Made by a program: the position numbers and the translations under genes | Notes under the pieces: generated by a model | What the model was told of the DNA's origin: nothing | The model's input: the letters and a program-made list of their open reading frames with translations, nothing else | Database searches by the model: none | Shown here: piece by piece, positions 1 to 5,423 of the stretch | Numbering within the stretch: the first letter of the stretch is position 1 | How the letters are laid out: the number at the start of each line of letters is the position of its first letter | IMG/VR virus record: IMGVR_UViG_3300021598_000241 | Location: 3,861 to 31,761 of that record | Reading direction: 5' to 3' (one strand) | Length of the DNA stretch: 27,901 nucleotides | From: a virus

Positions 1-309
1 ACCGCTTTGTACACGAAATAACTGCGTGTCACTGCCGGCACTCGATCCAGTACCGTTGTTATATAATTGTATGACATCTGAGGTAGTTCCGTAGATAGCA
101 TCTAGCTGAATAACTGCTGTGGGACTGATTGCCAATGGTTCGCCAAATGCTGATACCTGTCCTGCAATACTAGGACCGGACAATGACGCAGCGACTCGCA
201 ACAATGGTTTACCAGCAAGGTTATACTCCATGGCCTTGTGAATGTTTAGGAGATTGCTCTCCTGCGGATGCTCGTAGTTTGTGGTATTGCTTTGATTGCG
301 TTCAGCCAT
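1..309 (-). CDS. Virion-associated protein, N-terminal part (cut by window edge)
   Basis: The reading frame starts at an ATG (309-307) and stays open to the window edge, giving 103 residues of a longer protein. It opens MAERNQSNTTNYEHPQES and contains NLLNIHKAMEYN, FGEPLAISPTAVIQLDAIYG. From memory, this 'NLLNIHKAMEYN ... GE ... PVIQLDGIYG' pattern is the N-terminus of a long structural protein widespread in marine and freshwater myoviruses; its exact place in the virion is not known to me. It lies 3 bp downstream of the GLEYA-like gene and in the same orientation, so both are probably co-transcribed as late genes. No strong Shine-Dalgarno is visible (only GGAC). Confidence 0.75.
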   Translation of the reverse strand, partial: MAERNQSNTTNYEHPQESNLLNIHKAMEYNLAGKPLLRVAASLSGPSIAGQVSAFGEPLAISPTAVIQLDAIYGTTSDVIQLYNNGTGSSAGSDTQLFRVQSG

Positions 310-312
310 TGA

Positions 313-936
313 TTAATGTCCGTTGGTAGCCGAGTTATGAAATATTCTACCCGTCCATGTTGATGTTTTAGTAATAGTAGGTGTAGAATAACTTACAATC
401 ATAGTGCCTGGGCCAGTATTATTACCAAACATAATTCTAATTGGGTAGTAAACATTTTGTATTAAACTAATAGTACCGCTTTGTTCAGTAGTACCATGTA
501 GGCCACCGTTTTGTACAACTGCGTTAGTATGAGTGTACCCTGAGATAGCATCTGGACCTATCCACATGTAACTGGCATCGTCTGTATTGGTGAAAAAGGT
601 ATATGTTTCTGTTGTTGGGGCAAGGAAATATCCTAGCAACATAATAGAATTGTATTGAGGCTGCGAAGTGATATTCAATGATACTATAGTGCCTTGTGTT
701 TCAGTCACAGGAGCAACTACAGGATTGTCGAAGAATGTTAGATCATCGTTAGTGGGGGTAAAGTCAAGCCCAAAATAACCGTTAGCATTATTAGTGCCAA
801 CTCTGTTATAAAAGTAAATGTCTGGAGTAAATGTAATACCTGCAACGTTAATCCAGGGACGTCCCTGGATTAATCCTCCAACGTTAGGATTGTCAACTAT
901 TGAATTGCCTGAATACTTTGTGGGAAGATTGTCTAT
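313..936 (-). CDS. GLEYA/PA14-like putative carbohydrate-binding virion protein, non-standard start (ATA) or frameshift product
   Basis: The frame is open from 975 down to the stop at 313-315 but has no ATG, GTG or TTG until a GTG at 708, which would cut the protein in half. An ATA codon at 936-934 lies 7 nt after a perfect AGGAG, so I take ATA as the start (207 aa). The C-terminal half (about residues 95-200) has the pattern of GLEYA/PA14 sugar-binding beta-sandwiches: GYFLAPTTETYTFFTNTDDA, then YMWIGPDA, then YYPIRIMFGNN and a final beta strand. Such domains bind glycans, so a tail-fibre or adhesin role is likely but inferred. The same frame is also reached by a +1 shift at GAG TTT TAA at the end of the upstream gene, so a fusion product is the alternative. 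Confidence 0.6.
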   Translation of the reverse strand: MDNLPTKYSGNSIVDNPNVGGLIQGRPWINVAGITFTPDIYFYNRVGTNNANGYFGLDFTPTNDDLTFFDNPVVAPVTETQGTIVSLNITSQPQYNSIMLLGYFLAPTTETYTFFTNTDDASYMWIGPDAISGYTHTNAVVQNGGLHGTTEQSGTISLIQNVYYPIRIMFGNNTGPGTMIVSYSTPTITKTSTWTGRIFHNSATNGH

Positions 937-937
937 T

Positions 938-1237
938 TTAAAACTCCTGTTGATTAGGATACATGCTTGGATCTTTTACTCTTAGATCTGCAGGATGTTT
1001 AGGACCGTTAACTCCTCCACCAGCGTCTACTGTCACAGCATCAACATCTGTAATTTTTTCATTAGGAGAGTTTGTCCATCCGTCTGTGTCATTTTGTGTA
1101 AGATCTACAATATGTTTAAATCGTCGGATTTCGTCAGCATTGCCTTGTATTTCTACGCTGGCTTCAATTGGTTTACTAACAGCATCGATACCATCAATGA
1201 TGTCTAGAATGTTTCTAATTATTTCAGTTGCTCTCAT
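938..1237 (-). CDS. Conserved hypothetical phage protein, 99 aa
   Basis: I chose the ATG at 1237 (MRATEIIRNILDIIDGID) because the longer frame from 1300 adds only low-complexity residues. The N-terminal half is helical; the C-terminal half is acidic, then has DAGGGVNGPKHPADLRVKDP, a pattern I associate with T4-like aquatic phages but cannot name. It ends in AGGAG TTT TAA, which serves either as ribosome-binding site for the next gene's ATA start or as a +1 frameshift site. A late-promoter-like GATAAATA on the minus strand (1289-1282) lies about 45 bp upstream of the start. It is divergent from the aminolevulinate synthase gene. Function unknown. Confidence 0.7.
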   Translation of the reverse strand: MRATEIIRNILDIIDGIDAVSKPIEASVEIQGNADEIRRFKHIVDLTQNDTDGWTNSPNEKITDVDAVTVDAGGGVNGPKHPADLRVKDPSMYPNQQEF

Positions 1238-1281
1238 AATGTTGGTATTCCGTGTAGTGTCATGATATTTCCTAGTATTGA

Positions 1282-1289
1282 TATTTATC
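1282..1289 (-). promoter_or_regulatory. Late-type promoter-like motif GATAAATA
   Basis: Reads GATAAATA on the minus strand, close to the T4/cyanophage late -10 element (NATAAATA). It lies upstream of the 99-aa gene and the virion-type genes after it. There is no TTGACA at -35 distance. Assignment is by pattern only. Confidence 0.45.
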
Positions 1290-1297
1290 GTTAAATA
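1290..1297 (+). promoter_or_regulatory. Late-type promoter-like motif GTTAAATA
   Basis: GTTAAATA ends 5 nt before the ATG of the aminolevulinate synthase gene, and no TTGACA -35 is present. The same TTAAATA-then-ATG arrangement occurs at 6015-6022 and 17886-17893. If it is a -10 element, the transcript would begin at or next to the start codon. Confidence 0.4.
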
Positions 1298-1302
1298 CAA
1301 AC

Positions 1303-2496
1303 ATGATAAACAAAACTCCTTTTGAACTAAAGATACAGGATCTAAAAGATTCTGGCAAATATCGTGTATTCAACGATATTTTGCGAGAGCGCGGCAAGTT
1401 TCCCAAAGCAATTTGGTATGGAAAGTACAGCATAAAAGAAATTGTAAACTGGTGCTCAAACGATTACTTAGGTATGGGGCAGCATAAAATAGTTATTGAT
1501 GCTATGCATACTGCTCTAGATCAAACAGGCGCTGGCAGTGGAGGTACACGCAACATAGGCGGTACCAGTCACTATCACGTTGCCCTAGAACTTGAGCTCG
1601 CTAGCCTACACAAAAAGGAACGAGCTCTACTATATACGTCCGCCTATGTTGCAAATGAATGGACGTTGGTTGCTCTTAAACAGATCATTCCTGACATTGT
1701 GTTTCTAAGTGATAGTAAGAACCACGCAAGCCTCATACAAGGAATTAGACACAGTGGTGCTGACAAGGTGGTTTGGCAGCACAATGATTTGAGCGACTTG
1801 GAGCAGAAGCTAAAGAACGTGAAAGGCACGCCCTGCGTGGTTTTTGAGTCCGTGTATAGCATGGATGGTGACGTTTCGCCTATGCTTGACATTTGCAACC
1901 TTTGTGATCGTTACGGTGCAATGACATATATCGATGAAGTACATGCAGTAGGACTCTACGGAGAACATGGCGGTGGCAAGCTAGAACAACTGGGCTTGCA
2001 AGATAGAGTAGACATAGTCAACGGTACTCTAGGCAAAGCGTTTGGAGTCCAAGGTGGCTATATTGCTGCCGATAGTGTAGTCATTGATGCTGTAAGATCT
2101 GTAGCCAGCGGATTTATCTTTACAACAAGTATGAGCCCTGTTACCTGTGCTGGAGCACTAGCCAGTGTCAAGTATCTAAAAGACCATCACGAACTTAGAG
2201 AACAACATCAAAGTGTTAAGTCCCAATTGATGTATTTGCTGAACAAAGCTAATATACCTATTCACCATGATGCATGTAGTCACATAGTACCTGTAATGGT
2301 ACGCGATGCTAAAAAATGTAAAGCTATGAGTGATAGATTGTTAAACGAGTATGGTATCTACATACAACCTATTAACTATCCAACAGTTGATGTAGGTCAG
2401 GAACGACTACGTATTGCCCCTACACCATTGCATACAGATGCAATGCTGTATGATTTAGTAAAAGCTCTTAAAGAGGTATTTGATGAACATTCGTAA
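1303..2496 (+). CDS. hemA: 5-aminolevulinate synthase (ALAS)
   Basis: Condenses glycine with succinyl-CoA to 5-aminolevulinate, CO2 and CoA: the committed, PLP-dependent first step of heme synthesis in the C4 (Shemin) route, in the cytosol. At 397 aa it is close to alphaproteobacterial enzymes and appears complete. Visible family motifs are R21 near the N-terminus, CSNDYLGM (51-58), [17 protein letters not shown] (76-92), [22 protein letters not shown] (182-190), [10 protein letters not shown] with the PLP-ring aspartate D211, the PLP lysine K245 in [13 protein letters not shown], and IQPINYPTV near the end. The TLGKAFG and YPTV motifs favour ALAS over the related KBL/BioF enzymes. It has no clear ribosome-binding site; TTAAATA lies just before the ATG. 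It overlaps the following membrane-protein gene by 14 bp, so the two form an operon. It sits among virion-type genes on the opposite strand and probably came from a host as an auxiliary metabolic gene. Confidence 0.95.
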
Positions 2497-2899
2497 ACTA
2501 TTCTGGAACATACTAGGCTTTATTAGTCTAGGACTTGCATACGTAGGAGTTGTTACTCCAGGCATGCCCTATTCAATCTTTGTAGTGTTTGCCGCATATT
2601 GCTTTAGCAAGGGCAGTGAACGTATGCATCGTTGGATCTACAATCACAAACTGTTTGGACCGTTCCTAACCAATTGGGGGCAGAAGCGTGTGTTCCCAAC
2701 TAAGATGAAATTCTTTATGTTAGCTATGATGAGTTCTAGTTTAGTCATCATGTACTTCACTGGAGTGAAGCCTATAGGTATCTTAAGTACCGCATGCTTT
2801 ATGGCACTGGTTGCTGTATGGGCTTGGAGGTTTCCAGGTAGTGTTGAAGAACACCAGCGCCGTGTAGACACTGGTGCTCGTATAGGCTGGTTTAAGTAG
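2483..2899 (+). CDS. DUF454/YbaN-family inner membrane protein
   Basis: 138 aa. I chose the ATG at 2483, which has GAGG about 8 nt upstream; a TTG directly before it is the alternative. The pattern [20 protein letters not shown] then [19 protein letters not shown], then [12 protein letters not shown], is that of the DUF454 (YbaN) family of small bacterial inner-membrane proteins. Three or four membrane segments are visible: residues about 8-25, 30-43, 72-90 and 95-112. The biochemical role of the family is not known to me. It starts inside the aminolevulinate synthase gene, so translation of the two is coupled; this suggests acquisition as a unit and possibly a link to heme metabolism, which is inference. 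Its 3' end overlaps the convergent HNH gene by 8 bp. Confidence 0.85.
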
Positions 2900-3422
2900 C
2901 AGACATTTCCAAATCAAGCCACTGGTACCAGCTAGGGTGCTTGACATCAAATCCCATCTGTTTGCGCTTACGCACAAGTTCATAGTATCCAGGCTTGTAA
3001 GGCTTGTACTCAGGACGCATGCTCATGCTGTTACCTTTCCTTGCATTACAAGGACCGCATGCTGTTACAATGTTTTCCCAATTGGTCTTACCACCCTTAC
3101 TGATTGGTAATACATGATCCATTGTACCTGTGTTAGATGTAACACTGTCTTTGCAATAGAGGCAATGATACTGATCTCGTAAGAATAGATTTCCTTTTGA
3201 AAACCGTGGCTCTCTTGTGCGTCTTAGATAATCTTTAAGCATGATAACCGCAGGCACACGAGTCTCCCATGAAGCACTATGCACCACCCAGTCATCGTAC
3301 CATTCAAGCACATTGCACTTGTCTAGGTACATATAGGTGATTGCTTCTTTCCATTGGACAGCACTCAGGGGCAGATAGCTCACTGGCTGTCCGTCTGCGT
3401 TGATTACTAGTGTGTCGCTCAC
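2892..3422 (-). CDS. HNH endonuclease
   Basis: 176 aa with a textbook HNH (McrA-like) domain at about residues 78-130: the zinc pair CLYC (C87, C90), the catalytic DH (D102-H103) in GTMDHVLPISKGG, N117 in WENIVTAC, and the second zinc pair CGPC (C122, C125) followed by NARKG. Such proteins cut or nick DNA in a metal-dependent way. The N-terminal 75 residues (NADGQPVSYLPLSAVQWKEA) match a wider group of free-standing HNH proteins common in phages and bacteria. It may be a homing-type or recombination/packaging nuclease; the sequence does not decide. Convergent with the DUF454-type gene. Confidence 0.9.
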   Translation of the reverse strand: MSDTLVINADGQPVSYLPLSAVQWKEAITYMYLDKCNVLEWYDDWVVHSASWETRVPAVIMLKDYLRRTREPRFSKGNLFLRDQYHCLYCKDSVTSNTGTMDHVLPISKGGKTNWENIVTACGPCNARKGNSMSMRPEYKPYKPGYYELVRKRKQMGFDVKHPSWYQWLDLEMSAT

Positions 3423-3448: not shown

Positions 3449-4000
3449 TTAGATGTATCGATTAAACATTTGTTTGCTGGAGAGGTCAACGGCTCTTTCC
3501 CATTGTCTTTCTCCATCATATGTGAATATTATATCTTCATTTGACTTGCATGTCAACCAGCTATTTTCAGGAAGGTAGGGCGCTTGCCCTTTCAATTCCA
3601 TTTCTAGTTGTCCAGGTTGCCAAGCACATATGCCTCCCATCATGCGCCAATACGTGGGCTGATGTCCGTGTGATAACTTTTCTAGCATAAACTCGTCGCT
3701 AGAAATACGCAAGCCTTTACAGATATCTACAGTATTTGACGAAGACCAATCATCAGTGTGCAACATTAGTAGTGCCTTTTCATTAACTGGGCCACCTGCT
3801 CTAATGTAATCTTTGGTTAATGGATATCCAATTCCTCTTGTTTCTGCTAGGTCACTCATAGTGAATCTAGTCGGCTTATTGATCATGAGACCAGTAACCC
3901 CTTGCGGCGAGTCAGAGTATATGAATATTACGCTTTTATGAAAAATACTGCTCACTGGCAGTTTTGGGTGTGCTATGAGCAGTTTCCCTACCCGGCTCAT
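3449..4000 (-). CDS. YqgE/AlgH-family (UPF0301) protein
   Basis: 183 aa from the ATG at 4000 (MSRVGKLLIAHPKLP); a TTG six codons earlier is less likely. The family pattern is clear: GKLLIAHP, SVIFIYSDSPQGVTGLMINK, GGPVNEKALLMLHTDDW, and the hallmark W..M.GICAWQPGQLEMEL. In bacteria the family is linked by name to alginate regulation (AlgH), but its molecular activity is not settled. Finding it inside a phage late-gene block is unusual. Its start lies 2 bp past the stop of the cell-wall hydrolase gene, so it is co-transcribed with it. A host-derived regulatory or structural role is possible. Confidence 0.88.
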   Translation of the reverse strand: MSRVGKLLIAHPKLPVSSIFHKSVIFIYSDSPQGVTGLMINKPTRFTMSDLAETRGIGYPLTKDYIRAGGPVNEKALLMLHTDDWSSSNTVDICKGLRISSDEFMLEKLSHGHQPTYWRMMGGICAWQPGQLEMELKGQAPYLPENSWLTCKSNEDIIFTYDGERQWERAVDLSSKQMFNRYI

Positions 4001-4001
4001 G

Positions 4002-5423
4002 TTAGGTAACGGTTCCAAAAACGGTTCCGCCGATGACTTTGCCTCCCTGGGCTAGCATCTTATCTCTAAAGCCAATGTTGGTTCCAACACCGTACGCTGC
4101 TGAACTTGCGGCAGTAAAGTTTAGCCATTGTTTGTTAGCAGATGGCAGATGATCAGTAAGTGCTTTTGAAATTCTAGCTAACTCGTTTGGTGCCAGTCCG
4201 CCTCTAGCAAAACTGCCTTCGGGTCCAGTCCATTTTCCATTTATTTTCTTACCTGTAACTGGCTGGAACTGTCCTTTCTGATGCACCACAGCATAAACAT
4301 CATCTGGGAATTGCGGAGATCTAACTCTGTTTAGTATCACTGCTGCCACCTGCGCAATTTCCTGCGGATTAGAAGTTGATTCAGCAAGCGTTACCCTAGC
4401 CAATAGCACAAACTCATCAGGGGTTAGGGCTCTGCCTAAGAAATTACTTGCAATCTTCATTGTTTCTTTTATGCCTTCTTCACTGGTTAACTTTGCAACT
4501 TCTTCTGGGTCCATACCTGACGTGCGAGGTTGATTCTCAGTTGGTGTAGGAGTTTTTACTTTTGCAATCTTTGTACCAACACCTGCTAAAGTTTCTAGTT
4601 CTTTGGTTGATACAGACAAGGCTGAGCTACTAATCTCATAATCTTTCTTGAATGCTGCAACTGCTCTAGTAGTTCTAGGACCGTACTTACCGTCAATGCC
4701 TGTATCACCTACAGAGTAACCTATCTTCTCAAGTTTTCTTTGTAGGTCTCTCACAGCGTTCATGTAGGTTTCTTCACGTGGATAAGGCGGACCAGCTTTA
4801 AGTCCGTCTACTACTTCAGCAGTTTGCCCAGTACTGTCTGCGTCAGCACTACCAGTCTTACTAGATGCTCCAGCACTACCTGCTTGATACAGTTTTTTAT
4901 ATCCGCCAAACGGATGTAGGCCATCACCATTACCGCTGTGCATGTTTGGATCAAATTGTTCTAGGGGTCCTAAAAATTTAGCACCATTTGCCCTTGCAGC
5001 TTGCTCTAACTGATCATTTAATCCTGTTGGATCAACTCTATACCTAACTTTTTTAGTCCATGAAGTTCCTGGGAACCACGTAGACTTTTTAGATGGTGCA
5101 CCAACAACAGCTACTTTAGCACCAGCTGCAACTAATGCTCTAACTTGTTGTGCTGGATAGGTTCCTAATCTGCTTGGAATTTCTCCACCGTCCTCTAATT
5201 CAAATCTTGCGCTATTTCCTGCGCCAGTACTTAATATAACTGTAGCGCCTTTGGCTTTTCCTGTTTGTATAAAACTGTTTACTCTATTAAGAACTTCTTG
5301 CGCACTAATTCCACCTTGTGCATACGGACCAGCACCGCCTATACCAACAGCAATACTATCCCCAATAACAACTACGTTACCCTGTTCCGTTTCTATTAGT
5401 TTTTTAATTTCATAAAATCTCAT
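4002..5423 (-). CDS. SGNH hydrolase / peptidoglycan-binding / SleB-type cell-wall hydrolase fusion
   Basis: 473 aa with three parts. Residues about 14-180 look like an SGNH (GDSL-type) esterase: GDSIAVGIGG with the nucleophile S23, a Gly block GAGNSA, and DGLHP with the D167/H170 pair. Residues about 220-285 look like a PG_binding_1 domain (AVRDLQRKLEKIGY, then GIDGKYGPRTTRAVAAFKKD). Residues about 335-470 look like the Hydrolase_2/SleB amidase or transglycosylase fold (LARVTLAEST with E348, VAAVILNRVRSPQFPDD, GQFQPV). A low-complexity Ser/Gly/Ala linker (181-205) and a Pro/Thr linker (288-305) separate them. It probably deacylates and cuts surface glycans or peptidoglycan during entry or lysis. 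No signal peptide is visible, so a virion-borne enzyme is more likely than a secreted lysin. GGAG lies 5 nt before the ATG. Confidence 0.88.
   Translation of the reverse strand: MRFYEIKKLIETEQGNVVVIGDSIAVGIGGAGPYAQGGISAQEVLNRVNSFIQTGKAKGATVILSTGAGNSARFELEDGGEIPSRLGTYPAQQVRALVAAGAKVAVVGAPSKKSTWFPGTSWTKKVRYRVDPTGLNDQLEQAARANGAKFLGPLEQFDPNMHSGNGDGLHPFGGYKKLYQAGSAGASSKTGSADADSTGQTAEVVDGLKAGPPYPREETYMNAVRDLQRKLEKIGYSVGDTGIDGKYGPRTTRAVAAFKKDYEISSSALSVSTKELETLAGVGTKIAKVKTPTPTENQPRTSGMDPEEVAKLTSEEGIKETMKIASNFLGRALTPDEFVLLARVTLAESTSNPQEIAQVAAVILNRVRSPQFPDDVYAVVHQKGQFQPVTGKKINGKWTGPEGSFARGGLAPNELARISKALTDHLPSANKQWLNFTAASSAAYGVGTNIGFRDKMLAQGGKVIGGTVFGTVT

Follow-up and report, generated by a model that had tools for sequence, protein, structure and literature searches.

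A phage-encoded 5-aminolevulinate synthase gene overlapping a DUF454 gene: a possible heme and iron supply cassette of a T4-like virus

Gene content and phage origin of the locus

The stretch of viral DNA analysed here, which we call the window, comprises 27,901 nucleotides (bases 3861–31761 of a 31,761-base virus record, IMGVR_UViG_3300021598_000241) and carries a gene for 5-aminolevulinate synthase (ALAS) that runs into a gene for a small predicted membrane protein of the DUF454 family (Table 1). A preliminary description of this DNA reported a 14-base overlap between the two, which is correct for the ATG start of DUF454 at 2483; an alternative TTG at 2480 would extend it to 17 bases. The same description placed this plus-strand pair among minus-strand virion genes. 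The genes on either side are indeed on the minus strand, but those on the right encode an HNH endonuclease, a YqgE/AlgH-like protein and an endolysin-like protein rather than virion components. No PHROG match was found for the phage-borne YqgE/AlgH-like gene. The window also encodes an RNA ligase, a GP88-like protein and three tRNAs. Left of the window, an open reading frame of about 345 amino acids (L082:288-1325, minus strand) looks radical SAM-like by eye, going by what we take to be the cysteine motif of that family. Matches in the window to the late-promoter motif, in the form that we presume it to have, were near chance (36 against a mean of 25.8), and predicted sigma-70 promoters and terminators were at chance in a scan of positions 900–3100.

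Table 1 Features of the ALAS–DUF454 locus (window coordinates)
Feature	Position	Strand	Details
Small ORF, phage cluster 11	938–1300	−	Divergent; present in 52 of 107 ALAS viral loci
5-Aminolevulinate synthase (viral AlaS)	1303–2496	+	ATG start, 397 aa; K245, D211; K338 at the position of Rhodobacter capsulatus His342
AGAGG, likely ribosome-binding site of DUF454	2472–2476	+	Inside the ALAS coding sequence; predicted from sequence
DUF454 (PF04304) small predicted membrane protein	2483–2899	+	138 aa from ATG 2483
HNH endonuclease	2892–3422	−	Convergent with DUF454; family in 69 of 107 ALAS viral loci
YqgE/AlgH-like (DUF179) protein	3449–4018	−	Family in 70 of 107 ALAS viral loci
Endolysin-like protein	4002–5423	−	Hydrolase_2 and peptidoglycan-binding domain

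Between positions 937 and 12493, the latter being the end of the comparison because the loci compared stop there, the window is 100% identical to two other viral contigs (L002 and L003) from two differently numbered datasets, and both gene junctions are covered. Left of base 937, identity is 94–96% (window 292–936 against L002; 305–936 against L003) and is lost before about position 292. This drop possibly marks a recombination or hypervariable border within the virion genes next to ALAS. In the near-identical relative L003, the virion protein adjoining ALAS shares about 49–59% identity with cyanophage proteins and with that of one environmental phage among the 15 matches listed; T4-like is our label for this phage group. 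Judged by its sequence, the DNA comes from an uncultured T4-like phage that infects aquatic bacteria.

The linkage of ALAS to phage genes could in principle be a misassembly of phage and bacterial DNA. Two further viral contigs with 100% identity across both junctions make such a chimera unlikely; moreover, relatives of this ALAS are encoded in over 500 viral stretches, and viral ALAS proteins form a clade of their own. We therefore consider an assembly artefact ruled out for practical purposes, its probability being close to nil, and the original view of the ALAS gene as phage-borne stands, with a T4-like virion neighbour in L003 and no sign of a chimera.

A conserved ALAS with an intact active site

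In an HMM search with curated cutoffs, the ALAS protein scored 564 bits against TIGR01821 (cutoff 338.55), whereas its scores against BioF (TIGR00858, 314 bits) and KBL (TIGR01822, 264 bits) lay under the cutoffs of those models, and none of the SPT models rose above cutoff. These scores rule out a BioF or KBL identity and agree with the initial assignment as a real ALAS. Its nearest solved chains, 7x98 and 2bwn, are both ALAS. By residue numbering counted by hand from the alignment, the counterparts of K245 and D211 in 2bwn, which we take to be the R. capsulatus enzyme, are K248 and D214. Across 114 viral and 55 bacterial ALAS sequences, the viral set including six from metagenome-assembled genome (MAG) or DUF454-query loci that we classed as phage, all 13 of the active-site columns that were checked are identical, the PLP lysine included. 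These columns, which follow the site as we take it to be and were positioned from the 2bwn alignment, include K245, D211, H214, R370, T82 and N84, and the catalytic residues are thus intact, as first proposed.

The residues associated with heme feedback present a different pattern. Where R. capsulatus has the heme-regulatory His342, 111 of the 114 viral sequences carry one of four common residues, none of which is His. A Cys is present within the last 15 residues of 20 of the 114 viral enzymes; the window ALAS has none there. The known contacts for feedback by heme are thus probably missing from the window enzyme. Median dN/dS values of 0.081 for ALAS and 0.094 for DUF454 (12 pairs of relatives each) are those of genes under constraint; ALAS is, on these estimates, under purifying selection, and the window copy is apparently a working gene. 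Together with the curated HMM matches of both proteins and the recurrence of their gene order in many phages, these values speak against a chance arrangement.

The preliminary description had proposed a tree with bacterial and viral sequences. In a carefully built tree, the viral ALAS proteins, together with one bacterial sequence described below, form a separate clade, sister to the ALAS of Pelagibacteraceae (100/98). Relatives were found in 522 stretches of viral contigs, or at least 558 with an alignment query. Among 50,697 records of cultured phages, no ALAS relative exceeded 34% identity and no DUF454 relative exceeded 35%; the annotated matches are BioF, KBL or bacterial YbaN, and several of the records are unannotated.

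One bacterium also carries an ALAS of this viral clade: Neisseriaceae bacterium PsAf (L166:8001-9188; WNLJ01000010.1), a betaproteobacterial louse symbiont whose host is Polyplax serrata (PMC9376444). The PsAf protein is nested inside the viral clade (100/98 and 99/93) and has most of the viral signature residues; an AU test of the viral rows kept apart from PsAf was borderline (p 0.0495). Its gene lies in a chromosomal setting on a 96-kb contig, between patatin-like and efflux genes and near amgK, lptD and pdxA. In the PsAf draft genome, hemB is present and neither hemA nor hemL scored above cutoff. Within the family, hemA is above cutoff in 79 of 83 genomes, three others besides PsAf being without it, and the other 82 genomes contain no ALAS-like match above 36% identity. 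A C4 enzyme of phage lineage may, on this evidence, have replaced the C5 pathway in PsAf; the matches listed in a literature search, seen as excerpts, included no paper on ALAS in this bacterium. Auxiliary genes of phages may thus give rise to a permanent switch of bacteria from the C5 to the C4 route, as had been speculated from the window sequence.

DUF454 is a frequent companion of phage ALAS

Among 107 ALAS viral loci, a sample biased toward relatives of the window, DUF454 lies directly downstream on the same strand in 63, elsewhere in the DNA examined in 27 (including L047, where it would be downstream and overlapping if the longest starts were used) and nowhere in 17, of which 4 have ALAS at a contig end. 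Reduced to 78 non-redundant loci (<97% ALAS identity), the set has DUF454 adjacent downstream in 46, upstream within 1 kb in 4, separated by one intervening gene in 5, elsewhere in 10 and absent from the DNA examined in 13. The search of viral contigs for the pair that had been suggested at the outset therefore finds it to be recurrent. The 46 adjacent pairs occur in several settings: 26 have a convergent HNH gene, 14 have no HNH gene within 2.5 kb, 3 have nrd genes upstream and in 3 the setting extends beyond the DNA examined. Five MAG contigs, assigned to Flavobacteriales, Neomarinimicrobiota and Rhodobacteraceae bins (L163, L164, L165, L169 and L220), also carry both genes; they share gene clusters with viral contigs and therefore look like misbinned phage DNA.

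Phage ALAS ('valaS') has been described and assayed before by Wegner et al. 2024 (PMC11480375). In 50 whole valaS records, a mostly longer subset of the 107 loci, DUF454 is present in 45 and heme oxygenase, the known partner, in 14, a roughly threefold difference. DUF454 is the most frequent companion of phage ALAS, one that earlier work seems to have passed over; the matches listed in a literature search, seen as excerpts, included no description of the pair, and the companion appears to be a new part of the phage ALAS locus. Cellular ALAS loci outside a phage setting, 58 as counted from rows, include none with DUF454.

Whether this proximity reflects a shared task is a separate matter. ALAS could be a functional auxiliary gene and DUF454 a protein of unrelated role, kept adjacent by ancestry and genome compactness. 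Overlaps are common in these genomes (412 of 1219 same-strand neighbours), and the HNH and YqgE genes are syntenic too. Against mere adjacency, ALAS and DUF454 overlap in 52 of the 63 adjacent pairs, and the pair recurs in several settings, in both gene orders and with DUF454 proteins of different clades, as well as in most of the whole valaS records. Co-occurrence points the same way: among 59 phages matched by virion gene (from 80 loci found with that gene; at least 4 kb of upstream sequence), 6 have both genes, 10 ALAS only, 1 DUF454 only and 42 neither (Fisher p 0.001, with relatedness ignored). In this set, 10 of the 16 ALAS phages have no DUF454 in the DNA examined.

DUF454 also accompanies ribonucleotide reductase genes

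The view of the two genes as a unit suggested that DUF454 is tied to ALAS. That part found no support, for many related phages have DUF454, in nrd clusters, but no ALAS in the DNA examined. A DUF454 query returned 80 loci, namely a near-copy of the window (L083) and 79 others (L084-L162), 78 of which have no ALAS in the DNA examined. A small-chain ribonucleotide reductase (RNR; nrdB-like) cluster is present in 70 of the 79, glutaredoxin in 69 and a large-chain cluster in 55, these names coming from Pfam matches of members in L055. Such gene company favours the account in which DUF454 is only a neighbour of ALAS, which we nevertheless judge rather unlikely given the recurrence described above. 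Three viral contigs (L055, L056 and L075) and three of the MAG loci (L165, L169 and L220) have ALAS and DUF454 lying together with nrd genes. A 2OG-Fe(II) oxygenase family follows DUF454 in several nrd-type phage loci.

Endolysin-like genes (phrog_894, CHAP) often stand immediately before DUF454 in the nrd-type phages, the two overlapping by 4 bases in L105 and L091, and the neighbours of DUF454 are therefore not heme-specific. This position, the endolysin gene three genes away in the window and the small, helical and hydrophobic character of the protein would suit a holin-like or lysis-regulating membrane protein. Typical holins are not known to be strongly conserved with low dN/dS, as DUF454 is. 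The protein is, furthermore, homologous to a widespread bacterial family that includes the Fur-controlled ybaN, and its best fold matches are not significant. We consider a lysis role improbable.

In a tree made by a quick method, with many weak branches, phage DUF454 proteins separate from bacterial ones (98), and that of the window falls in a 20-row clade (100) in which it is the only ALAS-adjacent member, the rest being 10 of nrd type, 7 ALAS-distant ones and 2 others. By this tree the window DUF454 belongs to an nrd-type clade, which differs from that of the DUF454 in most ALAS pairs; the pair was therefore probably assembled more than once, and that of the window probably separately from most others.

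DUF454 family membership and links to iron

The window DUF454 matches PF04304 with 102.8 bits (cutoff 35.1) and reaches 61.8 bits against the YbaN equivalog model NF007818, under its cutoff of 163. Its AlphaFold model is all-helical (mean pLDDT 87), with hydropathy peaks at residues 6–41 and 77–117, and a fold search of PDB and BFVD returned nothing at E <= 0.001. The phage DUF454 proteins and most of their bacterial counterparts share H49, W51, H55, G59 and W65. Bacterial members were found at E <= 0.001 in 157 of 563 genomes of two proteobacterial classes. For 80 bacterial DUF454 loci, chosen in the main among the best-scoring matches in 102 and 55 genomes, 137 of the 160 immediately adjacent proteins were scanned, the remainder being long proteins and those of the last few loci, and no heme or iron family dominated; this, too, is what a neighbour of unrelated role would lead one to expect.

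Outside hints point to iron. Published studies list E. coli ybaN among Fur-regulated genes (PMC7157518, PMC10164565), report induction of DUF454 by iron restriction in Avibacterium (PMC7970244) and record DUF454 alongside T11SS genes (118 of 1,111), with haem oxygenase likewise near T11SS genes (PMC12282271). A role of DUF454 in heme or iron metabolism is plausible in the light of these reports; the bacterial gene neighbourhoods scanned here gave it no confirmation.

A proposed heme and iron supply cassette

The two genes, we propose with a probability of roughly 0.55, constitute an auxiliary metabolic cassette carried by a T4-like aquatic phage. Because the heme feedback contacts are probably missing, ALAS would keep the supply of ALA and heme up in the infected cell. 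DUF454 would be made from the same message through its overlapping start, the overlap being evident and the coupling presumed, and would act as an inner-membrane protein. That it helps the infected cell to manage iron or heme is the weakest step, which we would put somewhat short of an even chance, while the overlap and recurrence of the genes suggest, short of proof, a joint task in heme or iron metabolism. Phages keep DUF454 beside ALAS or beside an RNR operon. A more specific form, in which the two genes make up a phage heme and iron supply module, DUF454 being an inner-membrane partner for the use or tolerance of extra heme or iron where ALAS or an iron-dependent RNR creates the demand, is likewise rather less likely than not. 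If true, it would provide a first functional context for the uncharacterised DUF454/YbaN family, which is widespread in bacteria; its retention in phages beside ALAS or an RNR makes the iron or heme hypothesis testable.

Comparison with known systems

One phage homologue, CB_2 AlaS, functions in E. coli, where it complements a strain auxotrophic for 5-ALA (PMC11480375). Since phage ALAS has been published and shown to be active, the window ALAS is not a discovery in itself; it is a further member of valaS, with which it shares phage DNA, evident from the virion neighbour in L003, and a place in the viral ALAS clade of the trees. Like the published members, it belongs to phage-borne ALAS on Myoviridae-type contigs with conserved catalytic residues, heme-feedback residues missing in many members, and a distinct viral clade near Pelagibacterales, with which our tree agrees. 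By contrast, valaS was reported alone or with hemO and pcyA/X, an optional cassette for which a heme oxygenase search of L002, the longer relative of the window (38.6 kb), found no heme oxygenase, and both L002 and the window may be incomplete; the main text of that study makes no mention of DUF454. Wegner et al. mention an exception, which may correspond to the Rhodobacteraceae bin among our MAG contigs.

Bacterial ALAS (R. capsulatus 2bwn; 7x98) resembles the window enzyme in sequence family, active-site residues and length, whereas the latter lies in the viral clade and has no His at the 342 position; a Gly before the PLP lysine is found in 114 of 114 viral and 11 of 55 bacterial sequences. 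The E. coli YbaN/DUF454 family likewise shares with the window protein a PF04304 score above cutoff and Pro, Gly, His and Trp positions, whereas the window protein scores under the YbaN cutoff and the phage DUF454 proteins form a clade of their own.
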